Below are positions 8,292 to 52,846 of a stretch of 64,000 bases of DNA, one piece after another. Made by a program: the position numbers and the translations under genes. This DNA comes from an uncultured Clostridia bacterium. GTDB lineage: Bacteria > Bacillota > Clostridia > Christensenellales > Aristaeellaceae. Position 1 is the stretch's first letter. Every line of letters starts with the position of its first letter. Location: positions 1 to 64,000 of the forward strand of contig CAMVEB010000019.1 of NCBI GenBank assembly GCA_947166385.1, given 5' to 3'. The notes under the pieces were generated by a model. It was not told the DNA's origin. It was given only the letters and a program-made list of their open reading frames with translations, and did no database searches.

Positions 8292-8576
8292 ATGATGACA
8301 TTTCGGGAATCGATCAGACCATCGGCTGATCTCAGGAACCATTACAATGAGATTTCCAGACAGTGCAGAGAGAATAAAGAAGCTGTCGTTATAACCGTAA
8401 ACGGTCGGGGGGACACGGTTTCAATAGCATATGAAGAATACAGGAGAATGAAAGCCAGAATTGAATTGCTTGAAATCCTTGCAGAATCGGATGAAGATGT
8501 GAAGTTTGGAAGGGTTGCTCCTGTTCGGGATACTTTTGACGATATCCGAAAGATGCTGACGGAGGAAAAGCTTTGA
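8292..8576 (+). CDS. Type II antitoxin, Phd/YefM family
   Basis: A 94-residue protein with the Phd/YefM N-terminal DNA-binding fold: IRPSADLRNHYNEISRQCRE, then AVVITVNGRGDTVSIAYEEY, the usual VITxNGR pattern. The acidic C-terminal tail (ESDEDVKFGRVAPVRDTFDDI) should wrap and neutralise the toxin. The promoter at 8234 is close to consensus. The stop overlaps the toxin start. This intact pair is surrounded by gene debris, as is common for stabilising modules on mobile DNA. Confidence 0.87.
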   Translation: MMTFRESIRPSADLRNHYNEISRQCRENKEAVVITVNGRGDTVSIAYEEYRRMKARIELLEILAESDEDVKFGRVAPVRDTFDDIRKMLTEEKL

Positions 8577-8890
8577 AATACAAAGTATTACGTACCGATA
8601 CGGCAGACGCTCTGATCAGGAACATCATTCTGTACATTGCCGAAAAATTTGGAAGCGATATCGCATTGAATAAGCTGAACGATTTGGAAGAATCCATTCT
8701 GGCGCTGGAAAACAATCCGTATATCGGAACAGAACCAAGATATCCTGTTTTAAAACGGCAGGGATATAAGGTTCTCATTCTGGAAAAAGATCTGGTTTTT
8801 TATAAGATTGACGAAAATGCAAAAACGGTCACTGTTTATGCCGTTGTCGATCAAAGACAGGATTATCTTAGTATTATTCGGGGACTTTGA
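8573..8890 (+). CDS. Type II toxin, RelE/ParE family
   Basis: A 105-residue protein of the RelE/ParE superfamily, with YKVLRTDTADALIRNIILYI at the start, LEESILALENNPYIGTEPRY in the middle and LVFYKIDENAKTVTVYAVVDQRQD near the end, matching the compact ParE fold. It starts with TTG at 8573, overlapping the antitoxin stop (TTGA), behind GGAGGAAAAGC. Whether it cuts mRNA on the ribosome or poisons gyrase cannot be told from sequence alone. Confidence 0.85.
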   Translation: MKYKVLRTDTADALIRNIILYIAEKFGSDIALNKLNDLEESILALENNPYIGTEPRYPVLKRQGYKVLILEKDLVFYKIDENAKTVTVYAVVDQRQDYLSIIRGL

Positions 8891-9441: not shown

Positions 9442-12400
9442 TTAGATATATGCGCTTCCGGGTTGATCCGTTTGTTTTTTTGTACCATAATATTTCATGC
9501 ACAGCATGGTGATATCGTCAAACTGTTCTGCATTGCCTGCGAAGCGGTTCACCGTCTCATGCACATGGCGGATCAGTTCTTCCGGTTCCGCGCCCGGGCG
9601 CTGGTTCAGGGCTTCACACAGCTGCTCTTCGCCGAACATTTCTTCCGCATCATTGGCGGCTTCCGGTACGCCGTCCGTATAAACAAAGATGCAATCTCCC
9701 GGCTGCAGTTCAAATTCACGGTTTTGATAGCGGGCTTTCTTCACCGCGCCCACAAACATGTTATGTGGATATTCCAGCAATTCAAATGCCCCGTCAGCGC
9801 GCCGGAGAGCCGGGTTTTCATGCCCTGCGTTGCAAGCCAGGCCCTTGCCGGTGGAAAGCTCGATCACCGCCGCCCAAACCGTCACGAACATGCTGGATTC
9901 ATTGTTTTCGCACAACTGCAGGTTGACGTTCGTCAACGCCTCCGCAGGCGCAAGCCCCGTCATCAGCTGATTTTTGATCAGCGCTTGAGATACCATCATG
10001 AAAAGCGCGGCTGGAATACCCTTTCCTGACACATCTGCTATGACCATTGCCAGATGATCGTCTTCGACCAGGAAATAATCATAGAAATCCCCGCCGATCT
10101 CTTTGGCTGGTGTCATGCTGGCATAGAGATCAAACTTTTTCCCCTCTGCAGCCTGCGGGAGGGTGCGCGGAAGCGCGGAAACCTGGATATCCGAAGCGAG
10201 GCGCAGATCTCCAGCAATGCGCTCCTGATCCTTCTTCCGTTCGATCCGTTGGGCCTGCCGCTTCAGCATGAGACGGATCAGCCAGATATCGATCAGCAGG
10301 ACAACCAACCCGACAACTATCCAGAACCATAGCTGCTCATGGATTGCCAGTTCTTTTCGAATCAGGATGGAAAGTTCATTGCTTCCGTATATACCCTCGT
10401 CATCAAGGCGCATGATATAATGATATTCTCCGCCACCAAGGTTTGTGTAATCCGCAGGCTTCAGGTCACTGCTGTTTACCGTTACCGAAGCTGTGTCGAA
10501 GCCCTCCAGGAAACAGGTAACCTTTGGATCTGTCGGCGCGAAATTAATGACAAAACCGGTGACAGTCAGCTTATGCGTGTCGGAAGGGATCGTAAACCCT
10601 CCATCGGAATCGGGCAGAATCCGCAATCCATCAGCATGCACAAAGGGAACGGCCATCTTTACCGCAGTATCCGTTTCAAAAGGTTCCTCAATGTTCACTT
10701 TGGTCACGCCGGTTGTGCAGGCGATATACAGATCTCCATCCTCCGTCAATTCGCTGTAGGAATTCGATGTGGCAATACCGGCCAGACCGTTGTTGACATT
10801 GTAGTGTATAGCTTCGATCGCACCGTTGGCGATCAGCTGTTCCACTGGCGTCACATAAATCCCGTCGCTGGACAATACCCACATTTCGCCTTTGCTGTTT
10901 TCATACAGGTCATAATTATTGGCGTAAGGGAATTCCCGGATTGTTGTCACCCGATGGTCCGGCGTCATATAGGCCAGCGAGTTGCCCGTGACGATCCAGA
11001 TCAGGTTTCCCTCCCGGCTGCGGCGGACGCGCATCACCACGTCCGAGGTGAGGCCGTCTTCGGAACCGATATGCGTGATCCCGTCCGGCCGGATAATGAA
11101 GATCCCGCCCCCGTCCGTGCCAAGGACATACTCCCCGTTGAAGCCTTCTGTCACGGTCAGGACCCCCAGGTTCGTCAGTCCCTGTTCCGCCCCGAAGACG
11201 GCAGCCACCCGGCCGTTCCGGATGACGCTGAGTCCGCCGCTCTGCGCCGCAAGGATGCTTCCGTCTTCACATTCGTAAACCGCACGGCACTTTTCCGAAG
11301 CCATGCCGTCCTCCGGCGTAAATAACACCATCTCTCCCGCGCTATAGCGAATCAGTCCGTCGCCGTTCCATGGGCTGATCCAAAGATATCCCCTGCTGTC
11401 CCGCATCACGGACCGAATCCGGGTATTGTTCAGATAAGCGAGCAGATCCGTTGCTTCCACGGCTTTCCCCGAAACGGTCTCCGCCCTGGACAGGGGGATG
11501 CTGTCCACAGGTTTCCCGTCTTTTACGGCCATCAGGCCCTCGTCTGTGGCAAGAAAGAGCATGGTATCATACAGGCAGGTGGAATTGATGACCTGGGAAG
11601 GAATCTCCCACCGGGCGAACAGATCCTCGAACTGATTGGGGACCACTTTCATCACACCCTGCCTGGTGGATGTGAACCACAGATTTCCCTGATGGTCTGT
11701 CATGACATGCTGAACGGAATTATCCATCGGGACATCCTGCAGCAAGGTGGCGCTGTCCCCGTCCAGCTTGCCGATGCCATTCCTTGCGCATACCCAGATC
11801 TGCCCGCCGATTTCTTCCAGGCATTCCGGATCCGTGAGTTCTCCGAGATCCACCACACCGGCATGCTGAAACGCTTCCGACGCTTTCCCGTAATAAATGC
11901 TGGAACCTGTAGCCCCTAGCCAGAACCAGCCGGGATTTTCAGCATCCGGGAGAATGCAGCTGATATTTTTAACAGGGCAGTCCTCCGCAGCCATCACGCT
12001 GACCTGGTGTCCTTTGCTATAGCATACCAGGTTCCCGGTCCGGGTAAGCGCGTAAACCAGGCCGTCGCTGCTCCTGCGGAGATTCTGAACAGAGCCTTCC
12101 ATCCGGCCGCTGTGGTCTGTTGAAAGCTCCAGATCAGGACTGATGATAACGATGCCGGAGGTTGTACCAACATAGATATAGCCGTCCGAGTCTTCCGAAA
12201 AGCATCGGATCACGACGGATTCAGACAGTTCAGCCTTGCCCCACCTTCTAAACCGCCCGTTTTCCATCATCAGGAAGCCTGTGTCGTTGGTTCCGATCCA
12301 CAGCCGGTTATGACTGTCCGTAAACAAAGCCCTGACATTGGAGATCGGCGTATCTGCGTCGATCCGTTCAAATGTATTTCCGTCGTAACGCATCAGGCCT

Positions 12401-12681
12401 GCATAGCTTCCGATCCAGATAAATCCATCGTCGGTTTGCGAGATGGCGTTTGCCTCGGAAGTGGGCAGGCCGTTCCCGTTATTGTACAGTACAGCGGTAA
12501 ATTTCGCACCATGTCCGATCGGATCAACAGCGGGATTAAGATTCAGGTTCCCGGAGGCGTTCATAGATTGAACCGCGTCGCTGCGCGCAGAACAGGTCGC
12601 TTCTGCCATAATGATTACAGTAAAAAGCAGGCATAGCAACAGCCTAAGGGCATGATTCATTGTCAGCTGTTTCCGAAACAT
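9442..12681 (-). CDS. Membrane PP2C (SpoIIE-type) phosphatase with two-component-type propeller sensor
   Basis: A 1079-residue protein. A signal/anchor segment lies at about 10-30. Then come many Reg_prop repeats (DGFIWIGSYAGLMRYDG, NRLWIGTNDTG, GNLWFTSTRQGV, GYLWISPWNGDGLIRY) to about residue 690, a Y_Y_Y-like domain to 770, and one membrane helix (about 784-803). The cytoplasmic PP2C/SpoIIE domain spans 850-1065. Metal-binding motifs are intact: EIGGDFYDYF, IADVSGKGIPAALFM, VYTDGVPEA, FDDITMLCM. Propellers of this kind sense ligands outside the cell. The PP2C should dephosphorylate a STAS-domain antagonist, and one is encoded just upstream. The start at 12681 was chosen because GGGAGG ends six bases before it. 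It is the last gene of the peptide-export operon. Confidence 0.9.
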   Translation of the reverse strand: MFRKQLTMNHALRLLLCLLFTVIIMAEATCSARSDAVQSMNASGNLNLNPAVDPIGHGAKFTAVLYNNGNGLPTSEANAISQTDDGFIWIGSYAGLMRYDGNTFERIDADTPISNVRALFTDSHNRLWIGTNDTGFLMMENGRFRRWGKAELSESVVIRCFSEDSDGYIYVGTTSGIVIISPDLELSTDHSGRMEGSVQNLRRSSDGLVYALTRTGNLVCYSKGHQVSVMAAEDCPVKNISCILPDAENPGWFWLGATGSSIYYGKASEAFQHAGVVDLGELTDPECLEEIGGQIWVCARNGIGKLDGDSATLLQDVPMDNSVQHVMTDHQGNLWFTSTRQGVMKVVPNQFEDLFARWEIPSQVINSTCLYDTMLFLATDEGLMAVKDGKPVDSIPLSRAETVSGKAVEATDLLAYLNNTRIRSVMRDSRGYLWISPWNGDGLIRYSAGEMVLFTPEDGMASEKCRAVYECEDGSILAAQSGGLSVIRNGRVAAVFGAEQGLTNLGVLTVTEGFNGEYVLGTDGGGIFIIRPDGITHIGSEDGLTSDVVMRVRRSREGNLIWIVTGNSLAYMTPDHRVTTIREFPYANNYDLYENSKGEMWVLSSDGIYVTPVEQLIANGAIEAIHYNVNNGLAGIATSNSYSELTEDGDLYIACTTGVTKVNIEEPFETDTAVKMAVPFVHADGLRILPDSDGGFTIPSDTHKLTVTGFVINFAPTDPKVTCFLEGFDTASVTVNSSDLKPADYTNLGGGEYHYIMRLDDEGIYGSNELSILIRKELAIHEQLWFWIVVGLVVLLIDIWLIRLMLKRQAQRIERKKDQERIAGDLRLASDIQVSALPRTLPQAAEGKKFDLYASMTPAKEIGGDFYDYFLVEDDHLAMVIADVSGKGIPAALFMMVSQALIKNQLMTGLAPAEALTNVNLQLCENNESSMFVTVWAAVIELSTGKGLACNAGHENPALRRADGAFELLEYPHNMFVGAVKKARYQNREFELQPGDCIFVYTDGVPEAANDAEEMFGEEQLCEALNQRPGAEPEELIRHVHETVNRFAGNAEQFDDITMLCMKYYGTKKQTDQPGSAYI

Positions 12682-12706
12682 GTTCATCCTCCCGCGGAAA
12701 TACTGG

Positions 12707-13015
12707 TTAATCTGCGATCACGTGCACCACGTTAATAAAGTTGGTAAGCTTGATGATCTTCATCACCGCAGCGTTGGCGTGGATCAGCTGCACTTCGCCT
12801 TCGCGCTCCTCCATCGTCTGTTCCAGCCACAAAAGCAGGCGAAGGCCGCTGGAGGAGATGTATTCCACGTCGGAAAAGTCCATCACGATTTGCTGCACCC
12901 CGTCCAGATACGGCTGCAGCTCCCGGTCCAGCAGCGGCGTTCTGACGGTATCTACGCGGCCCTGGGGCCGCACGGTCAGAACGGTCCCCTGCTTTTCAAT
13001 CACGGCGATTGCCAT
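12707..13015 (-). CDS. STAS-domain anti-sigma-factor antagonist
   Basis: A 102-residue single-domain STAS protein of the SpoIIAA/RsbV class. The phosphorylation loop is intact: IVMDFSDVEYISSSGLRLLL, with the conserved Ser in the SSSG turn. Such proteins are switched by a serine kinase (anti-sigma factor) and a PP2C phosphatase. The phosphatase gene is immediately downstream, but no kinase gene is seen nearby, so the partner must lie elsewhere. The start at 13015 follows AAGGAGG; an upstream in-frame ATG at 13090 lies inside the precursor gene and lacks a site. Confidence 0.9.
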   Translation of the reverse strand: MAIAVIEKQGTVLTVRPQGRVDTVRTPLLDRELQPYLDGVQQIVMDFSDVEYISSSGLRLLLWLEQTMEEREGEVQLIHANAAVMKIIKLTNFINVVHVIAD

Positions 13016-13041
13016 GGTTTTGTTCCTCCTTGTTCTATCTT

Positions 13042-13533
13042 TTAGTTGATCCAGCAGGAATAAGCGATGCTCCACATGTAGACCGCGCAATAGTACGGGC
13101 CGCCCTCGCGCAGTTTTACATCCCAGTCGCGGGTTTTACAATTAAAATATTCCATGCAGAACTCCGCCGTGATATCATGTCCAAAGTTTTCATAGACCGC
13201 CGCGATGAATTCCCCGCCCTCGATGTAGGTCATATTGTAGAAACAGGGGCAACGCCAGTCTTCGGGCGCCCATTTCTTGATTCCGTAAATCCCGCCGCCG
13301 CTCACGCCATCCAGATCATCCGGGGAGATACGCTCGACATCCTGATCCGCCTGGGCCTTGTCCATCAACGTCTTCACGAGTTCGGGATCCACCTCGAGGC
13401 TGTCCGGCGAATGTTCCGCAAGATCAACCTGAGGGCGCAGCTCCTTCTCCTTCAGTTCCGCGATCTTCTCCTCTGACATGTTCAGCTTCTTCAGGGCATC
13501 CTCCATCTCTCGATTCAGTTGCATCTTTGCCAT
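13042..13533 (-). CDS. Double-glycine leader peptide precursor with large Cys-containing core
   Basis: A 163-residue secreted-peptide precursor. The first 79 residues are charged and helical, ending DDLDGVSGG, a double-glycine type processing site like those cut by C39 peptidases. The predicted core of about 84 residues has six Cys (in RCPCFY, AEFCMEYFNC, YYCAVY and YSCW), many aromatic residues and a hydrophobic C-terminal end. The start follows AAAGGAG. No modifying enzyme (lanthionine synthase, radical SAM protein or cyclodehydratase) lies in the operon, so the core may be cross-linked only by disulfides. It follows the two ABC exporter genes. Function is unknown: bacteriocin, signal or other. 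Confidence 0.8.
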   Translation of the reverse strand: MAKMQLNREMEDALKKLNMSEEKIAELKEKELRPQVDLAEHSPDSLEVDPELVKTLMDKAQADQDVERISPDDLDGVSGGGIYGIKKWAPEDWRCPCFYNMTYIEGGEFIAAVYENFGHDITAEFCMEYFNCKTRDWDVKLREGGPYYCAVYMWSIAYSCWIN

Positions 13534-13562
13534 GGTTCTGTTCTCCTTTCATTGTTTGTGTT

Positions 13563-15770
13563 TTATGTTTTATGTTCAGGCGAAGAGGGCGCGTCCGTCC
13601 GCTGCCTTTCCACCAGTTCCGCGAAGAACCCGCCGAGGGCGATCAGTTCTTCATAGGTTCCTTCCTCCACGATCTGGCCGCCATCCAGCACCAGAATCCG
13701 GTCGCAGCGCCGGATAGTGCTCAGGCGGTGGGCGATCACAAGCCTTGTGCAGCCCATCCTGTCCAGGGCTTCGGATACCTGCCGCTGGGTCTTGTTGTCC
13801 AGGGCGGAGGTGGCCTCGTCAAAGATCAGGATCTTCGGCTTTGGCGCGATGGCACGGGCGATCATCAGGCGCTGGCGCTGGCCGCCGGAGATGCCGCCCT
13901 GGCCCTCGGAGATGATGGTGTGCATCCCCATGGGCATGGCGCGGATGTCCTCCGCGATCCCCGCCGTCTCCGCCGCCTCCCAGGCCGCATCCATGGACAG
14001 CTCCGGCGCGGTGATCACGATATTGGAATAGATGCTGCCCTGCATCAGCCCCGCGTCCTGGGTGACGGTGCCGATTTTGCGGCGCAGGGATGGCAGATCG
14101 AGGCTGCTTATATCCCGGCCGTCAAAATACACCGCGCCCTTTTCCGGCTTCTCAAAGCCCAGCAGCAGCCGCACCAGCGTGGATTTGCCGCAGCCCGTCC
14201 GGCCCACGACGGCCACATACTCGCCGGGGGCGATCTTCAGCGACAAATCCTTCAGCACATAGGGGGAATCCTCGTCATAGCGGAAGGACACGTGATCCAG
14301 TTCCATCCCGCCGGAGAGCCGGGTGATGATCTCCTTTCCCTCTGCCGTCTCCGGCTCCGTTTTCAAAAACGGCTCCGCCATCTCCAGAATGGGCTTGATC
14401 TGCGCCGCCCTGAAGGCCACGCCCATCAGGCTCATGAACGCGCCCAGCATCATGCCGTAGGCGGCGGTAAAGGCGTAATAGCCGGAAGGCGAAAGCCCCG
14501 TCTCCACCGCCAGATCGTACAGCACGATGTTGGAAATCAGCGTGATGCCCGTGGAAATCACCGAATTGACCTTGATGAAACCAGGCGGGTTATACTGGGT
14601 GGCGGCCCCATCGGCATACAGGCTGAGCCAACGGGCGAACACGCGCTTCTCGGCCCCCGCCAGCCTGATCTTCTGAACGCCGGAAATGATGCTGTAGCTC
14701 ATGCCGGATTCCCCCGCGTCGAGTTCCATCTGGCGCTTGCTGATGCGGATGCGCGTGATGGAAGAGACGAAGGAAAACCCTACTGTAACCAGGATGATCA
14801 CCAGCGAGGGCACGACCAGCGCCGGGGCAAAATTGAAAATCTGCGTGATATACAGCATGGAGGACAGCGAGGTAAGCCCAGTGCTGAGCACCATGCCCAG
14901 GAGAATGGAGCACAGCTGGTTCACCGACATGGCGCGGGACTTGAGCTCGCCCGCACTGTAGCGACGGAAGAACCCGGCGGGGAGGCTCAGCAGCCGCATC
15001 ATCATGGACGATGCCACGCCAAGAGAGGTTTTGGTATCCAGCCGGGACTGGATCAACTCCCGAATGCTGTCCAGGAGCTTGGAAGACAGGGTAATGCAGA
15101 TCACGGAAAGCGCGATGCCGATAAGGACGGAGCCTTGCCCGCTGGCCAGCACCGGGCCTGTGATCGCCTGGGTGACGCGGGGCAGCAGCAGACCCGACAG
15201 CGTCACCGCCAGCGTCGCCGCGGCCAGGAGCGCCAGATCGCCCGGTGATACGCATCGCCACATATAGACAAGCAGATCCGGGATGCCCAACTTCTTCCGG
15301 GGCAGCGGATAGTAGAAGCAGACGGCCTCCTGTTCAAACAGAGCGGCGTTTTTCCGGTTGACCTTTGTCCGCTTGCCGGTGTGCGGATCCGTGAAAGTAT
15401 ATCCTGTCAGCACGCCGGGCAGCAGTGCCACGGGGACGCCCCCCTCCTTCGTGAAAGCGAGGATGGGGCCGAAGGCGTCCCTGTACCAGTTCTTCGTCAG
15501 CTCGATATCCCGACGCATCAGGCCGTGGGGGCGAAGGCAGTAATCCAGCTGCTCCATGGCGTCGGTGACGCTGTCCGGCAGAGCGGAGGGCTTGCAGTGA
15601 TAGTATTTCAGTATTTCGTCAATGGCGCTTTGGGCCACGAAACGCTGATCGTTGATCCTGTCCGCGATCCGCTGCCCCAGCACCACGCCGGAAATCTTGG
15701 CAAAGGAATCCTCCAGCCGTTCCTGGTCGGCACGGCGGCGTTCCTTCACCTGGCTTTTAAACCATTGCAT
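13563..15770 (-). CDS. NHLM-type peptide exporter, second ABC transporter
   Basis: A 735-residue half transporter resembling the ATP-binding permease of NHLM (nitrile-hydratase-leader microcin) systems. The N-terminal 240 residues form a divergent cytoplasmic domain without protease motifs, followed by a six-helix membrane domain (about 245-530) and an ATPase domain. Walker A is GRTGCGKST, the signature ISGGQRQRLMIARA, Walker B ILIFDEATSALD, and the switch His is in VIAHRLS. It likely pairs with the C39-containing transporter encoded directly upstream. The ATG follows GAGGAGG by seven bases. Confidence 0.9.
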   Translation of the reverse strand: MQWFKSQVKERRRADQERLEDSFAKISGVVLGQRIADRINDQRFVAQSAIDEILKYYHCKPSALPDSVTDAMEQLDYCLRPHGLMRRDIELTKNWYRDAFGPILAFTKEGGVPVALLPGVLTGYTFTDPHTGKRTKVNRKNAALFEQEAVCFYYPLPRKKLGIPDLLVYMWRCVSPGDLALLAAATLAVTLSGLLLPRVTQAITGPVLASGQGSVLIGIALSVICITLSSKLLDSIRELIQSRLDTKTSLGVASSMMMRLLSLPAGFFRRYSAGELKSRAMSVNQLCSILLGMVLSTGLTSLSSMLYITQIFNFAPALVVPSLVIILVTVGFSFVSSITRIRISKRQMELDAGESGMSYSIISGVQKIRLAGAEKRVFARWLSLYADGAATQYNPPGFIKVNSVISTGITLISNIVLYDLAVETGLSPSGYYAFTAAYGMMLGAFMSLMGVAFRAAQIKPILEMAEPFLKTEPETAEGKEIITRLSGGMELDHVSFRYDEDSPYVLKDLSLKIAPGEYVAVVGRTGCGKSTLVRLLLGFEKPEKGAVYFDGRDISSLDLPSLRRKIGTVTQDAGLMQGSIYSNIVITAPELSMDAAWEAAETAGIAEDIRAMPMGMHTIISEGQGGISGGQRQRLMIARAIAPKPKILIFDEATSALDNKTQRQVSEALDRMGCTRLVIAHRLSTIRRCDRILVLDGGQIVEEGTYEELIALGGFFAELVERQRTDAPSSPEHKT

Positions 15771-15782
15771 CCCGTTGCCTCC

Positions 15783-17963
15783 TCACTCGTTCGCCGCCAG
15801 ATCGGCATAGACGCCGTTTCGGGCCATCAGTTCCTCATGGGTTCCCCGTTCTGCAACTTTTCCGTGATCCAGCACGATGATTTCGTCGCAATCCCGCACG
15901 GTGGACAGCCGATGCGCGATCACGATGCAGGTGATGCCGCGCTCGCGAATGGCCTTGACGACCTCGTATTCCGTTTTCGCGTCCAGGGCGCTGGTGGCTT
16001 CGTCCAGAATCAGGATGATGGGATCCTGCGTCAGTACCCGGGCGATCTCCATGCGCTGCCGCTGGCCGCCGGAAAGGTTGCGCCCGCCGCTGACCAGCCT
16101 GTGCTGATATCCGCCCGACATCTGCATGATGTCCTCGTGAAGCTGGGCGTCGTTGGCCGCCAGAATCATTTCAAAATCCTTGATGGTGTCGTCCCACATC
16201 CTGATGTTGTTGGCAATCGTATCCTCAAAGAGAATGATATCCTGATCCACCACGGCTATCGAGGCCGTCAGCACCTCCCGGGGCAATGCTTCTCGGGGTT
16301 TTCCGTCAAACAGGATTTCCCCGCTCCAGGGCTTGTACAGCCCGGAAACCAGCTTGGAGATGGTGGATTTTCCGCAGCCGGACGCGCCCACCAGCGCCAC
16401 CTGCTGGCCAGTCTGCAGGGTGAGGGAAAAATTCTCAATAAGCGGCTTTTCCAGCCGGGAATAGCCGAAGGTGACGTTTCTCAATTCCACATTGCCCCAG
16501 AGCTTGTCGATCTGATCGTCGCTCACCTCGCGTTCCGCCACGTTCTCATCCTCCGGGTATTCCATCACGTCCTCGATGCGCTCCATCTGGGTGCGCATCT
16601 CCTGAATCCTCTGCCCGGCACTCACAAACGTCATGGCCGGAGACATGAATGAGCCCAGAAAGCCCTGGAACATCAGTACCGCGCCCAGGGTGAACCGGCC
16701 TTCCATGGTAAGCCAGACCCCCAGGATCAGCACGGCATAGTTGGCGGCCGTGCTCAGGAACGTCGGGATCATGCCCAGCAGCGCGTCGTTTTTCCGGCTC
16801 CGCCCTTCCTGCTTGTTGACGGACGCCTGATACCCGGCCCATTTTTGGAAAAACCCGTTTTCAGCGCCGCTGGCTTTGATGGTCTCGATCATCGAAATGC
16901 CGCTGACCGTCGTGGCTTCCAGGTTTGCCGCGTCCCTCGTCTGCACCCGTGCGATGTTCACGCGCTTGGTTGAAATCAGGCGGGCTACGATAATGTTCAG
17001 AATCATCGTCAGCAGCCCGACCATCGTCAGCAGCAGGCTCTGGCGCAGCATCAGCACCAGGTAGAAGATCATCATCGCAGTATTGAGCAGAAGCGGCGCG
17101 AAGGTGTTCACCAGCGTTCCGGCCACGGAAGCGTTCAGCGCGGCGCGGCTCTGGATATCCCCGGCAAGGCGCTGGGAGAAAAACTCCATGGGAAGCCGTA
17201 GCACCTTCCACATATAGCTGGTTCTGCCAATGACGGACATTTTTCCGTTCACCCGCAGGGAAAAGATCGCCTGCGCCCAGGCCACCGTCAGCTGGACAGC
17301 TGCCAGCAAAAGCAGCAGCACCAGGAACGAACGCAGCCATATCCTGTTTTCTCCCGTCAGGATTCGATCCAGAAAAATACGGGATGTGACGGAGTTTATG
17401 ATGCCGAAGAGATAACTGATGGCAGTGGTGATCATGACAAACGCCACCGCCGCGCCCGCGCCGATCAGGCGCTTGCGGGCAAAATCAACTGTGCTGCGCC
17501 GCTTCCCGCCGGGCTCAAAAGTTTCGGAAGGCGTGGGGATGATCACGATCCCGGTAAAGGCTTTGTCGAATTCCTCGTCGGTGACCCTGATCTCGCCCTG
17601 GGCCGGATCATTGAGGTAAACGTGCTTTCCCCGAAACCCGTCCAGCACCACAAAATGATCCATGTTCCAATGGATGATGCAGGGAAATTTGCCCTTCTCC
17701 CGGATGCCCTTCGGAGTCATGCGGAATGCCTCCACGTCGAATCCGTAGTGCTCCGCCGCGAGGTAGATATTCTTGGCTTTGGAGCCATCGCGGGAAACGC
17801 CGCATTCCACGCGCACCTGTTCCAGGGGCACCCATTTGCCATAATAGGCCATCAACATGGCCAGCGCCGCCGCGCCGCATTCCAATGCCTCCAGCTGCAT
17901 GACCACAGGCACCTTCGCCACGCCCCTGGTCAGCGTCGGCTTGATTTTCCTCTTCTTTCCCAT
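15783..17963 (-). CDS. NHLM-type peptide exporter with C39 peptidase domain
   Basis: A 726-residue peptidase-containing ABC transporter. The N-terminal C39 domain (about 15-140) keeps its catalytic set: Cys in LEALECGAAALAMLMAYYG, His in HWNMDHFVVLDG and Asp in LNDPAQG. A six-helix membrane domain follows, then the ATPase domain with GASGCGKST, LSGGQRQRMEIARVL, ILILDEATSALD and VIAHRLS. It should cut the double-glycine leader of the precursor encoded downstream and export the core. The start at 17963 lies five bases after the stop of the upstream adaptor gene. A much longer in-frame extension overlaps the adaptor gene and is not expected. Confidence 0.93.
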   Translation of the reverse strand: MGKKRKIKPTLTRGVAKVPVVMQLEALECGAAALAMLMAYYGKWVPLEQVRVECGVSRDGSKAKNIYLAAEHYGFDVEAFRMTPKGIREKGKFPCIIHWNMDHFVVLDGFRGKHVYLNDPAQGEIRVTDEEFDKAFTGIVIIPTPSETFEPGGKRRSTVDFARKRLIGAGAAVAFVMITTAISYLFGIINSVTSRIFLDRILTGENRIWLRSFLVLLLLLAAVQLTVAWAQAIFSLRVNGKMSVIGRTSYMWKVLRLPMEFFSQRLAGDIQSRAALNASVAGTLVNTFAPLLLNTAMMIFYLVLMLRQSLLLTMVGLLTMILNIIVARLISTKRVNIARVQTRDAANLEATTVSGISMIETIKASGAENGFFQKWAGYQASVNKQEGRSRKNDALLGMIPTFLSTAANYAVLILGVWLTMEGRFTLGAVLMFQGFLGSFMSPAMTFVSAGQRIQEMRTQMERIEDVMEYPEDENVAEREVSDDQIDKLWGNVELRNVTFGYSRLEKPLIENFSLTLQTGQQVALVGASGCGKSTISKLVSGLYKPWSGEILFDGKPREALPREVLTASIAVVDQDIILFEDTIANNIRMWDDTIKDFEMILAANDAQLHEDIMQMSGGYQHRLVSGGRNLSGGQRQRMEIARVLTQDPIILILDEATSALDAKTEYEVVKAIRERGITCIVIAHRLSTVRDCDEIIVLDHGKVAERGTHEELMARNGVYADLAANE

Positions 17964-17968
17964 TTGCT

Positions 17969-18394
17969 TCACCTGCTTTCCAGCAGGAAACTGATGAGAT
18001 GCGTTTGCGCTGTGACCACAATCCCATCGTAGACGCCGTCTGGCAGCTTGACCACCGCGTTGCCGAAGGACCGGTCGTATTCGTCCGTGCCGACATTGTC
18101 GAGCGTATATTCGTCGGATGCCACGCGCAGCGGCATTCCTTCCGTAAGTACGGCCGCTTCCCTGGGAATGACCGTCGCCTGCTGGCCCGCCACACTCACT
18201 TTCACCGCGGCCGTGCTTTCCAGCGTGCCGATGGTAAACCACACAAAGACGCCCGCAAGAAAAAGAACAATGCTGGCAAGAAGCACCCAGATCCCCGGAT
18301 TGGTCACGCGCAGATAATCCGTCAGCTGATCCGGGGAAGAGATGCGATCCCGCGTTTTCTGCCGAGACACATTCGCTTTCTCCTGCTCACCCAT
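17969..18394 (-). CDS. Short membrane adaptor of the NHLM-type exporter
   Basis: A 141-residue protein with a cytoplasmic start (RDRISSPDQLTDYLRVTNPG), one membrane helix at about 35-57 and an outer domain of some 85 residues. The SSPDQL-to-helix region resembles the start of the HlyD-like secretion proteins of NHLM systems, but the long coiled-coil hairpin and barrel of that roughly 400-residue family are absent. It is the first gene of the operon and lies five bases before the C39 transporter. The ribosome binding site is AAGGGGA. It may be a reduced adaptor suited to a cell without an outer membrane. Confidence 0.7.
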   Translation of the reverse strand: MGEQEKANVSRQKTRDRISSPDQLTDYLRVTNPGIWVLLASIVLFLAGVFVWFTIGTLESTAAVKVSVAGQQATVIPREAAVLTEGMPLRVASDEYTLDNVGTDEYDRSFGNAVVKLPDGVYDGIVVTAQTHLISFLLESR

Positions 18395-47353: not shown

Positions 47354-48130
47354 TCAGTCCTTGTTTCGAAGGGCTTTGAGCCTTTTCATGTTAAACTTTG
47401 CGATTTCTTCCCATAGCTTTTTTAGCTGTTTTTTATGGGTGCAGAGCTTTTCTGTGCAGCTCCGGCACCGCAGATAATCATTCGTTTGATCCGAAAAGCG
47501 CTCAGGATGCTTGTAAAAAGTGACTTCCCAGCGGATGAGCAAACCGACCGAAAGAGCGAGAAGCCCCCATGTATATGGCTTCATGACAAAGAAAAGCGGT
47601 GTGAACATCATGGCATAATCCCAGTTGTAGATTCTGCAGGTGGCGCAGCATTTGTTTTTCAGGAACCAGGTCTGGAACGGGCAGAAAAACAGAATGCAGA
47701 TCATATCGCAGACGGAATAGGCGCAGCTCAGCAGCAGCATGATGCCGTCGTCAAATATGCCCGCGATATACAGCGCGCCGAAAATGGCGTTGAAGCCGAG
47801 CCAGATCAACAGCACGAGGACCGTGCCGTTATTGTCCTGAATGGAAATCTCCGTACTGCCGGATTTGACATAGTTGCGGGCAAACTGCTTCTGGGATCCC
47901 GGGCTTTCCAGTTTCGAAGGGAAAAAACGAAAGATCATTTCCACCGCGAACAGCACGCAGATGAACGCGATGATGCCCGGCTTCTCCTCCAGGGAGTCAA
48001 GGATAGCCGGGCCGTTCTGGCTCCTGTAAATGATATACTGAATCAGCAGCAGAATAAACAGCACAGAACGGTAAACAAGCCGGAAATAGTGGGCGGCGCT
48101 GACTGCGGTCAGTCTGGTTTTCCTTTTCAT
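47354..48130 (-). CDS. Membrane protein with Cys-rich tail (258 aa), unknown
   Basis: The protein has about six membrane helices, an acidic outer loop near residue 90, and two cysteine groups: FLKNKCCATCRIYNWDYA and LRCRSCTEKLCTHKK near the C-terminus. Such CxxC pairs suggest metal or redox binding, which is inferred. The start overlaps the upstream gene stop by four bases, so it is translationally coupled to the large secreted protein. No family recognised. Confidence 0.7.
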   Translation of the reverse strand: MKRKTRLTAVSAAHYFRLVYRSVLFILLLIQYIIYRSQNGPAILDSLEEKPGIIAFICVLFAVEMIFRFFPSKLESPGSQKQFARNYVKSGSTEISIQDNNGTVLVLLIWLGFNAIFGALYIAGIFDDGIMLLLSCAYSVCDMICILFFCPFQTWFLKNKCCATCRIYNWDYAMMFTPLFFVMKPYTWGLLALSVGLLIRWEVTFYKHPERFSDQTNDYLRCRSCTEKLCTHKKQLKKLWEEIAKFNMKRLKALRNKD

Positions 48131-51100
48131 GTTTCGCCGTAATACACAATCCGTCCGCCGAGCTCCGTGAAACTTTTTTCGAAGGTTCCGTAATCGATCG
48201 CCACGGTCGTACCGGCGTTCGGATCGCGGTAGATCAGGGATGTATCGTCATATCCGCAGATCACAATCGCGTGCTCGCCGCCCGGCCATGAGACTGTCTC
48301 CCCGTTTTCATCCAGCCACTTCCAGCGGTACATGATATCCCGCATCGGAGCGGACACATACCAGGCCAGTACCGGGTTTCCGGTATCCAGAATCGCTTTG
48401 ATGTCGTCAATCGTCGCGTTCTTCTCTGTGTGGACGCCCGGCATCAGCTGCTCCGCGACCTGCGCGATCGGCTCGTTGAATACGCCGTAGGAATACTCGC
48501 TCCGCGGATCCCCGACAAATTCACGCTCCGGGTTTGCGCCGTGCCGCACACCGTTCTCATCGTCGTACGGCTGTGCTCCCATCGGCAGCAGGTCATAAAT
48601 CTGGTCCACCGTGACCCCCGCTCCGTAGTATTCCAGCAGCATATACAGGGAAACGCTTTCGCAGCCCGTGGGATAGTCCGGATACTGGCAGAATTCAATC
48701 ACGTCCAGCATAACGCTGTTTTCCGTTGCCTTTGCTTCCTGGATGGATCCGTCCGGCCGTGTCTCCCCGGCTTGCCACTGGTCCCATTTCACCGGGGTGA
48801 CCACGTTCGTGTACAGATATAGTTTTTTCGAGAATGCGTCCGCCGCTTTCTTTGTAAACAGCGGATTGTAGTAATGCTCCTGCACCGCCGCCACCATTTC
48901 TGGCGTGATGCCTTCGTCGCGCCAGGCCGGCAGCGAATGGTCATACATCCATTTTTCGCTGTAGCCCTTTTCCCCAATCACGATGGTGCTCGGTGAGGCG
49001 AAATACGCCATGGCCGCCGCCTGATCGTCGCCCAGCAGCAGGTCGATCTCTTCATCGGTAAACGCCTTGCGGTGAACCATCTGCTCGGCGTCTGACAGCA
49101 CTTCCCGCACCTTGTCCGCGTCCAGCTCATGGGTATGGATAAAGGAATAGATGTTCGCGTAGTCCATCAGTGTCAGCGCGTAAGCCGGTTTGTCCGCCAC
49201 GTAGTCGTATTCCCAGGAATAGCCGCCGTCAGCCATCTTCATCAGCGCCTCCGGCAGAGACGCGAGCCGTTCGTTGCAGGGCTTTGCGTAATACGGAGAA
49301 GAAGCGCTGGCGGTGCCGAAGGGTTTCTCCGGCATTTTCTGCGCGTCCCAGGCTTTCCAGACTGCCGTGCCGGTTTCTGCCAGTCCTCGCCGCGTGACCG
49401 TTGCGTCCGGCGTCGGGAAGCTTCCGTACAGTGTATCGCCCAGGAACTTCCGGACAATCTCCCCGAGGAATTCCTGCGTCAGCGCCGTGTTCCCCTGGAA
49501 CTCTCCGTCCTCCCCATCGTAGACTCCGGTCTGTTTTGCCCAAAGAGCAGACCGTTCATAGGGCGATCCTGCCGTCACATCCGGGAAGTTCTCCCCGGCC
49601 ATGTCCGGTTCCGGTTTTTCGGCGGTCCGCCACAGCATCTCAATGGCTTCCCCCCGGGTTGCCGGGCGATCCGGCAGGAAGTATCCTGTCTCATAGGCAT
49701 CAATGAGCTTCTTTTCAATACAGAACGCGGTATATTCATGACCGGCTGGCAGTTCAGGCTGCGGGTATTCCTCGCCCTCTGCCAGGTAAATCCACGGTAT
49801 ATACACCTTGTTCAGGTCCTGCATCCAGGTCCGCCCGTTCGCCCGTTTCATATCGAGCCGGTTGATCTGTGTGCACCGCGTCCGCTGGCGTTTTCCGCTG
49901 TTGGGGCTCATCAGGCTGCTGACGGTGCTTACCACATAGTATTCCCCGGCACACTTCCCCAGGTACATCATCTGATGTCCGGGGAAGTTCAGCAGCGTGC
50001 CCATCGGCAGCACATCCAGCAGCGTTTCCTTTTCTTCCTGGCTGTACCCCGCGATGTTGATCCGCGGATTCCGTTCCACCAGCCACTGCCAGGTTCCGTT
50101 GCGCGGCATGTCCAGGCCGAAGCAGCAGAATACGGAATGATTCAGGCTGGTACAGTCCTCGTTGTTCAGCCCGGCTCCCCATCCGTACGCGTCGCCCAGG
50201 GACGCCAGCGCAACTTTTGCCAGGTTTCCCACGGTCAGCGGCAGGTAATCTTCGCTCACCCGTTCCCGCGCGTTGATGAGTGCCGGCGTCTTGCCGTAGC
50301 TGCCGTCCTCGTTCCGCACGGGCAGGTAAACCGCGTAGTTATGAACCGGCAGCCGGTTGATCACCAGGGCATCCGGATCTGTGTCATCCATCCGTTCGAG
50401 TACCGTTCCCATGGTAATCAGACGACAGACGGTCTCCTGCGCGGAGCAGGAGTAATCGGTATACATCTTGTCGCCCCAGAACACCAGGCGCTTGTCCGCG
50501 GGGATGTCCCAGGCGCTCAGCCATTCTTCTTTATCCCGGCACAGGGCGATGTCTTCCGCCCGGACCCAGCCGGTGCAGCAGGAGGTGGCTGCCTGGAAGT
50601 ATTTACCGTCCGCCGAGGTCGCGTAAATAGCCACCGGCTCGTTCACCCGGATGCCGACCAGCGGCTGGTAGTCAAAGTCCAGGTCTGTCGGGTCGTCCAG
50701 CAGCTTTCCGTCCCAGGGGAAGGTAATCAGGTCAGTCCGCTTCACCGCAATACCCCATCTGACGGGCATTTCTTCCGCTGCGTTGGGATCGATGCAGTTG
50801 GCCGCAATGACGTCGAAATCTTCCTGCTCCAGTTTCTTTCCGGTCTCGTCCCAGATCCATCCCAGGTAGTATTTCACATCATCGGCCGTACTTTTCTTCA
50901 GCGCTTCCCGCTTTTCAAATCCGTTATAGGTCTCCTGCAGGGTTCGCATATTCCGCCGGTTGGTGCCTTCGCCGGCGATGGCAGCCTCGTTGATCCGTGC
51001 GATCTCCTCCGCCGTGGCCAGCAGCGCGTCCGGATCTCCCGTCAGACCTGCCCAGAATGCGGAATGCGTCATTTCTTCCGTAACGCCCGGCATATAGACA

Positions 51101-51213
51101 ACCTCCCTGACCGCCGCCTGGGCCGCCTGCAGCGACGGCACGGCGATGATCCCGCACAGCGCCAGGATGATCATCGTGATCCTGCCTGAATGTTTCCTGG
51201 TATTCTTTCGCAT
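48127..51213 (-). CDS. Secreted three-module protein: NlpC/P60-like, SLH-like and C39-like domains
   Basis: A 1028-residue protein. After the signal peptide (MIILALCGIIAVPSLQAAQA) an SH3-like region leads to an NlpC/P60-like cysteine hydrolase segment (GDAYGWGAGLNNEDCTSLNH). A SLH-like module follows (ATRGEAIEMLWRTAEKPEPD, NFPDVTAGSPYERSALWAKQ), which would attach it to the wall. A C39-type peptidase-like domain ends the protein (TGCESVSLYMLLEYYGAGVT, GGEHAIVICGYDDTSLIYRD) with Cys, His and Asp in place. It likely acts on peptidoglycan or extracellular peptides. The start at 51213 follows GGCGGAGG. It is followed by the coupled membrane protein gene. Confidence 0.8.
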   Translation of the reverse strand: MRKNTRKHSGRITMIILALCGIIAVPSLQAAQAAVREVVYMPGVTEEMTHSAFWAGLTGDPDALLATAEEIARINEAAIAGEGTNRRNMRTLQETYNGFEKREALKKSTADDVKYYLGWIWDETGKKLEQEDFDVIAANCIDPNAAEEMPVRWGIAVKRTDLITFPWDGKLLDDPTDLDFDYQPLVGIRVNEPVAIYATSADGKYFQAATSCCTGWVRAEDIALCRDKEEWLSAWDIPADKRLVFWGDKMYTDYSCSAQETVCRLITMGTVLERMDDTDPDALVINRLPVHNYAVYLPVRNEDGSYGKTPALINARERVSEDYLPLTVGNLAKVALASLGDAYGWGAGLNNEDCTSLNHSVFCCFGLDMPRNGTWQWLVERNPRINIAGYSQEEKETLLDVLPMGTLLNFPGHQMMYLGKCAGEYYVVSTVSSLMSPNSGKRQRTRCTQINRLDMKRANGRTWMQDLNKVYIPWIYLAEGEEYPQPELPAGHEYTAFCIEKKLIDAYETGYFLPDRPATRGEAIEMLWRTAEKPEPDMAGENFPDVTAGSPYERSALWAKQTGVYDGEDGEFQGNTALTQEFLGEIVRKFLGDTLYGSFPTPDATVTRRGLAETGTAVWKAWDAQKMPEKPFGTASASSPYYAKPCNERLASLPEALMKMADGGYSWEYDYVADKPAYALTLMDYANIYSFIHTHELDADKVREVLSDAEQMVHRKAFTDEEIDLLLGDDQAAAMAYFASPSTIVIGEKGYSEKWMYDHSLPAWRDEGITPEMVAAVQEHYYNPLFTKKAADAFSKKLYLYTNVVTPVKWDQWQAGETRPDGSIQEAKATENSVMLDVIEFCQYPDYPTGCESVSLYMLLEYYGAGVTVDQIYDLLPMGAQPYDDENGVRHGANPEREFVGDPRSEYSYGVFNEPIAQVAEQLMPGVHTEKNATIDDIKAILDTGNPVLAWYVSAPMRDIMYRWKWLDENGETVSWPGGEHAIVICGYDDTSLIYRDPNAGTTVAIDYGTFEKSFTELGGRIVYYGET

Positions 51214-51336
51214 GGTTTTTCCTCCGCCTTTCCGCCTTTGATGAAGATTGATTTGTTGGTCTTTCATCCTGATACGTTTATTTATTTTATCCTTCTGAAA
51301 ATCCCTTGTCAATCTTGCGCTCCGTAACCTTTTTCG

Positions 51337-51366
51337 TTGACAATCTTTCCCTTTTGCCTGTACAAT
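51337..51366 (+). promoter_or_regulatory. Promoter of tldD-tldE
   Basis: TTGACA (51337-51342), 18 bases, TACAAT (51361-51366), 35 bases before the tldD start at 51401. Confidence 0.75.
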
Positions 51367-51400
51367 ATCTGTGTCGTTGAAAATTGAAAGGAGAGGTACC

Positions 51401-52846
51401 ATGAAAGCACCTTTTTCATCTTATCTCGCGGGGATTGCTCCCGGTCTGAAGGAGCTGGTTTCCCTGCTGCGGAAGCGGTATGACTATGTTTCTGTGCTGT
51501 CCACCGATTCCGTCGGTTTCTCTGTTTCCATCTCCCAGCGGGCAAAATCTGTTGCCCGCCAGAACATGACCACCGAGCGCGGCACGGTCGTTCGGGTATA
51601 CCGGGACGGGCTCTACGCCGAATCCGCGTTCACCGGCTTTGATCCTTCAAAGGCCGCCGAACGGTATGAATCCATTGTCGGGGAGCTGGATGCCCAGCTG
51701 CGCCTTCTGAAAGCCGCCGGTGTCGAGCCTTTTGAGACCGGAATTCTCCCGGATGAGGAGCGCACCGTCTTCGCGGAGATGGAGATGGCCCGCCTTCCCC
51801 AGGCGGAGGAGATTGCCGTTCTGGTGGACAGGCTTTCCTCCGTCTCCGACAGCGGCATGGAGCATGGCAGAGCGAAAGGCCTGACCCTGATTGATTTCCA
51901 GACCCGTGCTTCCTCCACGCATGTCTGTAAATTATTCCTGACGGAAAATCAGGATCTGCGCCAGTCCTATGTCTACAGTGAAGGCATGCTGGCCGCCCTG
52001 GTCGCCGGCAAAGAGCGGACCGACCTGGCCTACGTCTCCCTCTCCGGCCGGAAAGGCCCCGAGCTCTTCGACGATATGGACCGGAGAATTCCGGAAGTCC
52101 TGCGCATCGCCGCCGATCTCGTTTCCGCCGAGCGCGTGGAGCCCGGAGAGTATGAAGTGATTACCGCCCCGGAGGTCACCGGCCTGATCGCCCATGAAGC
52201 CTTCGGCCATGGTGTGGAAATGGATATGTTCGTCAAGGGCCGCGCCCTGGGCGCTGAGTATATCGGAAAGCGTGTCGGTTCCGACAAGGTTACGATGCAC
52301 GAGGGCGCTCTCTGTGCCGAGGATGTGACCTCCTACGCTTTTGATGACGAAGGCACCCCAGCCGGGGATGTGACAGAGATCGACCGCGGCATCCTCCGCG
52401 CCGGCATCTGTGACGCGCTGAGCGCTCTCCGCCTCGGCGTAAAGCCCACCGGCAACGGCAAGCGGCAGAACTTCGCGCACAAGGTCTACACCCGGATGAC
52501 CAACACGGTTTTTGATTCCGGTGAAAGTTCGCTGGAGGAAATGATCGCCTCCATCAAAAAAGGTTATCTTCTCGAAGGCATGCAGTCCGGCATGGAGGAT
52601 CCCAAGCACTGGGGCATCCAGTGCATCCTGGACCGGGGTTATGAAATCATCGACGGCAAGCTCACCGGCAAAGTCGTCTCTCCGCTGGTCATGACCGGTT
52701 ATGTACCGGATCTGCTGGGTTCTGTCTCCATGGTCTCGAAGGACCGCGAGATCTTCGGCGCCGGTTACTGCGGCAAGGGCCATAAGGAATGGGTCAAGGT
52801 CGCCGACGGCGGTCCCTATCTGAAAGCGAAAGTGAGGCTGGGATAA
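51401..52846 (+). CDS. tldD: Metalloprotease TldD
   Basis: A 481-residue TldD. The zinc motif GLIAHEAFGHGVEMDMF is intact, with HExxxH giving the metal ligands, and the MTNTVFDSGESSLEEMI region is conserved. TldD pairs with TldE to form a protease that degrades unfolded peptides and matures some RiPPs (microcin B17 in E. coli). The ATG follows GAAAGGAGAGG. The downstream tldE start overlaps the stop codon by one base. There is no precursor gene adjacent here. Confidence 0.93.
   Translation: MKAPFSSYLAGIAPGLKELVSLLRKRYDYVSVLSTDSVGFSVSISQRAKSVARQNMTTERGTVVRVYRDGLYAESAFTGFDPSKAAERYESIVGELDAQLRLLKAAGVEPFETGILPDEERTVFAEMEMARLPQAEEIAVLVDRLSSVSDSGMEHGRAKGLTLIDFQTRASSTHVCKLFLTENQDLRQSYVYSEGMLAALVAGKERTDLAYVSLSGRKGPELFDDMDRRIPEVLRIAADLVSAERVEPGEYEVITAPEVTGLIAHEAFGHGVEMDMFVKGRALGAEYIGKRVGSDKVTMHEGALCAEDVTSYAFDDEGTPAGDVTEIDRGILRAGICDALSALRLGVKPTGNGKRQNFAHKVYTRMTNTVFDSGESSLEEMIASIKKGYLLEGMQSGMEDPKHWGIQCILDRGYEIIDGKLTGKVVSPLVMTGYVPDLLGSVSMVSKDREIFGAGYCGKGHKEWVKVADGGPYLKAKVRLG

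Follow-up and report, generated by a model that had tools for sequence, protein, structure and literature searches.

Half of a partner-switching module joined to an NHLM-type peptide exporter in an uncultured Clostridia bacterium, and a possible sigma factor arm of its control

The stretch analyzed here, in the following called the window, comprises 64,000 nucleotides of an uncultured, gut-type Clostridia bacterium and is contig C19 of its 4.33 Mb genome (96 contigs). Between positions 18394 and 9442 the minus strand carries a row of six genes with intergenic gaps of 5, 12, 29, 26 and 19 bp (Table 1). They encode an adaptor, two ATP-binding cassette proteins (ABC1 and ABC2) of a peptide exporter, a double-glycine precursor, a STAS protein and a membrane phosphatase of the PP2C type. 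A first-pass annotation had described this row as a peptide exporter coupled to a partner switch; families and coordinates of the six genes could be confirmed and, as claimed there, no modifying enzyme is found among them.

Table 1. Genes of the exporter and switch row in the window.
Feature	Coordinates	Strand	Family match or motif
Short adaptor, truncated HlyD-like membrane protein, 141 amino acids	17969..18394	-	TIGR03794 positions 1-46, below cut-off
ABC1, C39 peptidase/permease/ATPase	15783..17963	-	TIGR03796 over cut-off; PF03412
ABC2, partner permease/ATPase without peptidase	13563..15770	-	TIGR03797 over cut-off
Double-glycine precursor, 163 amino acids	13042..13533	-	leader site GVSGG
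STAS anti-sigma antagonist	12707..13015	-	TIGR00377, PF01740
Membrane PP2C with Reg_prop propeller	9442..12687	-	PF07494, PF07228

Both ABC proteins qualify as NHLM subunits, ABC1 with 899.5 bits (cut-off 853.3) and ABC2 with 719.4 bits (cut-off 709.4); no Peptidase_C39 match was obtained for ABC2 in the Pfam scan. The sequence of ABC1 contains a Cys (LECGAA), a His (MDHFVVL) and an Asp (LNDPA), which we take to be the residues of the C39 site, and its structural relatives in the PDB comparison are, over nearly the full length, the bacteriocin transporter 4ry2 (presumably PCAT1) and ComA (8hf4). With 17.4 bits against a cut-off of 156.2 and coverage of only positions 1–46 of 421, the adaptor falls short of the NHLM HlyD-like model. 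The precursor is composed of an 80 amino acid leader (end ...SPDDLDGVSGG, next residue G) and an 83 amino acid core with six Cys. It matches no Pfam or NCBIfam family, including the NHLP and Nif11-like models. The search of 150 genomes of the same family yielded only two relatives besides the precursor itself, both weak; an alignment of the core was not possible. About ten short leader-type peptides with AGG, SGG or VGG sites occur in another exporter locus (L140, genome G031), and one of these leaders weakly matches the window precursor.

The reading frame of the STAS protein has its first listed start inside the precursor gene; the likelier start is the ATG at 13015. The protein passes TIGR00377 (61.9 bits, cut-off 53.45) as well as PF01740, with 4hyl and 1sbo as structural relatives. 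In the PP2C an N-terminal hydrophobic segment is followed by the Reg_prop propeller (79.2 bits), a hydrophobic segment near residue 778 and the SpoIIE-type phosphatase (177.4 bits; PDB relatives 3es2, 6k4e and 3ke6). Because the two hydrophobic segments flank the propeller, it presumably lies outside the cell. Its nearest solved relatives are the two-component hybrid sensors 4a2l and 3v9f, which we take to be carbohydrate sensors of Bacteroides. The proposal of the first-pass annotation that the exported peptide itself acts as ligand thus gains no support, neither from these relatives nor from the precursor with its two weak matches. A transcript boundary between precursor and STAS genes is not indicated either: the scan listed no terminator-like site there, and none of the ten promoter-like sites of the region lies between them on the minus strand. 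Across the region, the 9 terminator-like sites equal what chance would give (9.3), and 10 promoter-like sites compare to 5.9 expected (standard deviation 2.9). A defence function of the operon was considered and rejected, as PADLOC matched nothing but the ATPase portions of ABC1 and ABC2.

To place the row among its relatives, two collections of exporter loci (labelled L) were compiled. The first comprises ABC2 relatives in 57 of the 150 family genomes, that is 74 loci including three of the own genome, the other 71 of which were retrieved. The second holds 80 of 264 confirmed relatives and overlaps the first (e.g. L063, L149); one of its loci has no ABC2 match. The combined set counts 154 loci, with duplicates kept unless stated. 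In the 57 family genomes a STAS gene lies within 5 kb of the exporter at 21 of 74 loci compared to 0.61 expected (34-fold), and a PP2C gene at 14 of 74 compared to 0.83 (17-fold), where custom profiles gave the observed counts, and the expected ones follow from the roughly 173.7 Mb of these genomes with their 171 STAS and 234 SpoIIE matches in Pfam. When STAS was counted again from Pfam matches, measured from ABC2, at least 17 of 74 loci had it among the matches listed, compared to 0.73 expected (23-fold). The second collection behaves similarly (STAS 24/79, PP2C 20/79 within 5 kb), and in three other families STAS was found within this distance at 4 of 20 exporter loci. The coupling of exporter and switch proposed in the first-pass annotation is therefore borne out, with a linkage far above chance in the family and its recurrence outside. 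Exporters are less frequent in the class as a whole (22 of 391 genomes) than in the own family (57 of 150); loci were retrieved for 20 of the 26 matches that the class-wide sample gave beyond the own genome.

Over the whole retrieved regions STAS occurs at 51, PP2C at 38, a HATPase kinase at 47 and an adaptor homologue at 132 of the 154 loci. Many relatives have, next to their switch, the kinase that the window operon lacks. STAS or PP2C belongs to the exporter's own row in 29 of 154 loci (at most 250 bp between recognized genes, duplicates kept), a count that leaves out the window because its precursor is not a recognized gene. A row resembling the window, adaptor-ABC1-ABC2-STAS-PP2C/kinase, is present in L152; other single-strand rows include STAS-PP2C-kinase-adaptor-ABC1-ABC2 (L057, L077, L080, L091) and PP2C-STAS-kinase-adaptor-ABC1-ABC2 (L114), so that several orders exist.

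The candidate phosphoacceptor Ser, which we take to be the residue phosphorylated in known relatives, is retained in 47 of 48 aligned STAS proteins of exporter loci, the window included. In all 37 PP2Cs of more than 300 amino acids the phosphatase is preceded by a hydrophobic segment, and 32 of them have a loop of more than 100 amino acids between hydrophobic segments, by a simple hydropathy count with duplicates kept; these loops presumably lie outside the cell. Five sensors of relatives were scanned with Pfam: over cut-off, L103 has 5TM-5TMR, L071 has Cache, HAMP and EamA, and the other three show no domain besides SpoIIE or the kinase domain. The kinase of L114 passes HATPase_c_2, and its best NCBIfam models, RsbW and RsbA, remain below cut-off. 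A family of about 205 amino acids in six loci, with STAS genes nearby in L034:9681-10316, L058:6679-7296 and L126:16490-17095 (as oriented), has no Pfam or NCBIfam match over cut-off; it may be a diverged switch partner of the kinase kind.

Only 31 of the 76 loci that are fully flanked (5 kb on both sides) have STAS or PP2C, so the pairing is real but optional. For a tree, 147 usable exporters were grouped into 136 clusters at 95% identity. Of these, 97 were labelled (50 with switch, 47 without), and the share with switch is inflated since 39 clusters without switch and with short flanks were left out. On the FastTree exporter tree the label requires at least 23 changes compared to 25–36 in 40 shuffles: it follows descent in part, yet has often changed. 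Owing to this relatedness, the p-values calculated for the pairing are too small.

Three NHLM-type exporters are present in the own genome: the one in the window, one on contig C20 (L025; ABC2 720.6 bits, over cut-off) and one on C12 (L026; 674 bits, below cut-off). The last, at L026:9990-14447, is accompanied by three radical SAM proteins (Pfam) and a 75 amino acid leader-type peptide with the site NVAGG. Alongside the C20 exporter lie a MATE-kinase fusion, a small gene that we call f7, and a sigma factor of the extracytoplasmic function (ECF) type. The fusion joins an ATPase domain of the anti-sigma-kinase type to a MATE transporter (L025:3020-4765; a second example is L207:10787-12523); MatE was confirmed by Pfam in both, and the ATPase domain is just under cut-off in L207. 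Similar long proteins with a kinase domain occur in L052, L053, L056, L070, L073, L094 and L123, the Pfam scan having covered L025 and L207.

The f7 gene (L025:5200-5400) and the ECF sigma gene (L025:4731-5219) form the one f7-ECF pair found in the genome. The sigma proteins of L025, L039 and L266 show sigma regions 2 and 4, the ECF layout, and that of L025 passes TIGR02937. The f7 proteins have about 62 amino acids, and their C-terminal part resembles a double-glycine leader in which AAG replaces GG; in the own genome this part ends RELSLDEMEWVSAAG, close to the leaders of the own regulon described below. An alignment of 26 sequences shows Q, F, L, I and AAG unchanged throughout; some others depart, e.g. 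in genome G036 (L249). Neither Pfam nor NCBIfam gave a match over cut-off, and the PDB gave none. The predicted fold, of medium confidence (pLDDT 72.3, pTM 0.35), has helices at 2–15, 19–31 and 38–47, the last of which would run into A46-A47-G48.

Across the combined set an ECF-type sigma gene occurs at 42 and f7 at 32 of 154 exporter loci. Usually f7 precedes and overlaps the sigma gene; it follows it in L093, L102, L105 and L107. Of the family genomes, 41 of 150 have f7: 38 of the 57 with exporter compared to 3 of the 93 others (one weak). In the class f7 is present in four of 391 genomes including the own, all within the 22 with exporters, and in the three genomes besides the own f7 lies less than 1 kb after an ABC2 gene. 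Some loci combine both modules. The order STAS-PP2C-kinase-adaptor-ABC1-ABC2-f7-sigma is found in L158 and L162, with similar rows in L039, L060 and L063. L266, of another family, reads STAS-adaptor-ABC1-ABC2-f7-sigma, L049 reads f7-sigma-STAS, and L271 contains both the switch and the f7-sigma arm. Of 29 f7 loci away from retrieved exporters, L190 has a PP2C gene after f7-sigma, and L207 has STAS plus the MATE-kinase fusion there.

In 62 regions upstream of f7 an unsupervised count revealed the dyad CTGCC-N16-CGTAT as a top signal in 17, compared to 3–4 for the top dyads of three shuffles; with N16 or N17 it is located 60–115 bp before the start in 26 regions. Five loci with f7 and no sigma gene found beside it (L192, L195, L198, L201, L203) have the same promoter-like dyad. 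The pattern CTGCCA-N15/16-CGTAT-HWA gave 16 sites in the own genome and none for the reversed control (the labels L217–L232 go with the f7-ECF pair and these sites). According to fixed expressions, the best-scoring open reading frame within 300 bp downstream encodes a double-glycine peptide at 10 sites, with leaders such as MELNLDEMSMINGG, a Sec-type secreted protein at four and f7 at one; one is unclear. Under the same rule 114 of 6000 random positions, coding positions included, gave a double-glycine peptide, with a frame called at 2209. Nine of the ten peptides were scanned with Pfam: two have LysM over cut-off and three Bacteriocin_IIc below it. The 41 f7-bearing genomes of the 150 contain 221 sites (control 10), the 109 others 22 (control 22). 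One site each from 19 other f7-bearing genomes led to four double-glycine peptides, four f7 and six Sec-type proteins; one site each from 10 genomes without f7 led to one double-glycine peptide. The f7-ECF pair thus seems to turn on double-glycine peptide genes genome-wide.

Our preferred reading, to which we assign a probability of roughly 0.4, is that the window row is the sensing half of a control circuit on an NHLM exporter, with a peptide-export programme as likeliest output via the f7-ECF arm. An outside ligand would cause the PP2C to strip phosphate from the STAS serine; free STAS would bind a kinase encoded elsewhere, and the bound kinase would release its target. Several kinases are encoded in trans in the own genome, including the MATE-kinase fusion beside the second exporter and modules on C21 and C29, any of which could act as partner. 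The f7-ECF pair would be the transcription arm. In the simplest view a secretion programme would have two optional inputs: an outside signal via PP2C and STAS, and the exporter traffic, the latter on condition that f7 acts as an anti-sigma factor. The reading builds on the observed linkage, families and promoter-peptide association, and supposes that f7 binds the sigma factor and that the kinase binds a sigma factor or the exporter.

A more specific version for f7 is doubtful at present and draws on analogy. The small protein may imitate a cargo leader and serve as an anti-sigma factor gated by export: its N-terminal helices would hold the sigma factor, its AAG end would be offered to the C39 peptidase, and the traffic through the exporter would set sigma release, with PP2C, STAS and kinase adding an outside signal at some exporters. 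FlgM is a precedent for such export-gated logic.

Several observations weigh against the preferred reading. Exporters without the switch in most relatives, which the first-pass annotation had named as speaking against its coupling, are what is found: in 45 of the 76 fully flanked loci both STAS and PP2C are absent from the 5 kb around the exporter. Switch and f7 are jointly present at 13 of 154 exporter loci, with about 12 expected from 58 and 32, and after removal of near-copies f7 is present at 9 of 35 switch loci compared to 11 of 47 others. The candidate of an inseparable unit of switch and f7-sigma was rejected on these grounds, as the co-occurrence at exporters is no higher than chance; the two are independent companions of the exporter. 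The sigma search suggested by the first-pass annotation delivered an ECF candidate beside many exporters, which may or may not be the target of the switch in view of this chance-level co-occurrence. Neither a kinase nor a sigma gene is part of the window operon, and within its first 30 kb the window has no ECF sigma gene. Other STAS/kinase/PP2C sets, several of them away from exporters, exist in the own genome, so that the partners of the window switch cannot be assigned. Further, the dyad is limited to 26 of the 62 f7 upstream regions and is absent from all six f7-sigma loci outside the family. At 43 dyad sites in the retrieved loci (12 without a called frame) the nearest frame is never an adaptor, ABC, STAS or PP2C gene. 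A strict dyad site is absent from the window operon, and sites with up to three mismatches are at chance level; ECF control of this operon was therefore rejected for now. No RsbW-type kinase is known to act on an ECF sigma factor in Clostridia. As switch and f7 meet at exporters only at chance level and the window operon has no dyad site, it is by inference that we connect the window STAS and PP2C to the f7-ECF circuit.

An alternative which we judge unlikely, and which nevertheless survives best, is that the switch gates the exporter itself: STAS, free or phosphorylated, would act on the ABC pair or the adaptor, with no sigma factor involved. It is consistent with L115, L117, L119, L126 and L154, where STAS follows ABC2 in the same row and no co-directional PP2C or kinase is present there, with the independence of switch and f7-sigma, and with the lack of an ECF site in the window operon. 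In Bordetella, moreover, secretion is under the control of BtrU, BtrV and BtrW, and how they exert it is described as unknown (PMC7498569). Kinase and PP2C are, however, of the sigma-control type, and f7-sigma shares a row with the switch in a few loci. Likewise improbable is a switch directed at a general or unlinked sigma factor of the SigB/SigF class, or at another target, with the exporter operon being only one output or merely co-transcribed. The partner-switch sets away from exporters and the absence of the switch near most exporters would fit this, whereas the 34-fold enrichment of STAS (23-fold in the recount), the 17-fold enrichment of PP2C and the same pairing in three other families argue against it. 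That the genes are neighbours by chance, or travel as passengers in a single inherited or mobile cluster, can practically be dismissed: the label partly tracks the exporter tree (23 changes compared to 25–36 in the shuffles), which means that the loci are not independent, but 21 STAS genes were observed where 0.61 were expected, and 23 changes together with several gene orders argue for repeated rebuilding.

Two further regions of the window lie outside the operon. Past its end, at 8292-8890 on the plus strand, a small gene is followed by a ParE-type toxin gene (PF05016), likely a toxin-antitoxin pair. On the minus strand at 48127-51402, a protein of 1091 amino acids has S-layer homology besides an SH3 domain and a peptidase domain of the C39-like type (PF13529); it is likely located at the cell surface.

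Compared to known systems, the window shares with NHLM/NHLP export (TIGR03796, TIGR03797, TIGR03794), as far as described in the accessible text of Haft et al. 2010 (PMC2887384), both ABC subunits over the curated cut-offs and an adjoining precursor of the double-glycine type. In contrast, its adaptor corresponds only to the first part of TIGR03794, its precursor is outside the NHLP and Nif11 models, and a partner switch takes its place in a row of six genes without modifying enzyme. A term search of that accessible text gave no ‘sigma’, ‘phosphatase’ or ‘STAS’. The closest parallel, by analogy, is the Bordetella btr system on type III secretion, for which the consulted parts of two articles (PMC7498569, PMC8256260) give the ECF sigma factor BtrS, the exported anti-sigma factor BtrA, the PP2C BtrU, the STAS protein BtrV and the kinase BtrW. 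Similarly, some relatives of the window unite ECF sigma factor, a small gene for a candidate anti-sigma factor, PP2C, STAS and kinase at one secretion machine. Unlike there, peptides are exported by a C39 ABC machine, the anti-sigma role of f7 is putative, and the window itself contributes only STAS and PP2C, with its first 30 kb free of ECF sigma genes. With SigB/SigF switching (RsbU/V/W; SpoIIE/IIAA/IIAB) the loci have the domains, the conserved Ser and the HATPase_c_2 kinase (L114) in common; the exporter-linked sigma factor differs by its ECF layout, and the presumed cargo would be exported peptides. ComA/PCAT1-type transporters (8hf4, 4ry2) are C39 peptidase-ABC exporters as well. ComA-type systems are controlled by a histidine kinase, whereas here two different ABC subunits are combined and the control would be by partner switch. 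In a search of titles and beginnings of abstracts, outside of which most subscription journals fall, no paper was found that links exporters of this type with a partner switch or an ECF sigma factor.

The reading of the first-pass annotation is accordingly supported in part: right on the coupling, unproven on the target and unsupported on the peptide feedback. In the window locus a known type of control takes a new form, a partner switch on a C39 ABC exporter, and the f7-ECF circuit is the more novel part. What turns these exporters on was not found in the literature searched. The promoter pattern points to ten short leader peptides in the own genome, two with LysM (Pfam), which an exporter-centred search could miss because most of them lie on other contigs. 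The loci offer a control circuit that can be tested, with a sensor, a switch, a kinase, an ECF sigma factor, a promoter sequence and the target peptides. In addition, they provide a simpler, non-pathogen setting in which to ask how secretion is governed by partner switching, a point called unknown in the Bordetella review (PMC7498569). If the proposed role of f7 holds true, the logic of FlgM and BtrA would have been invented again for a peptidase ABC exporter, and free sigma factor would lead to more double-glycine peptides.

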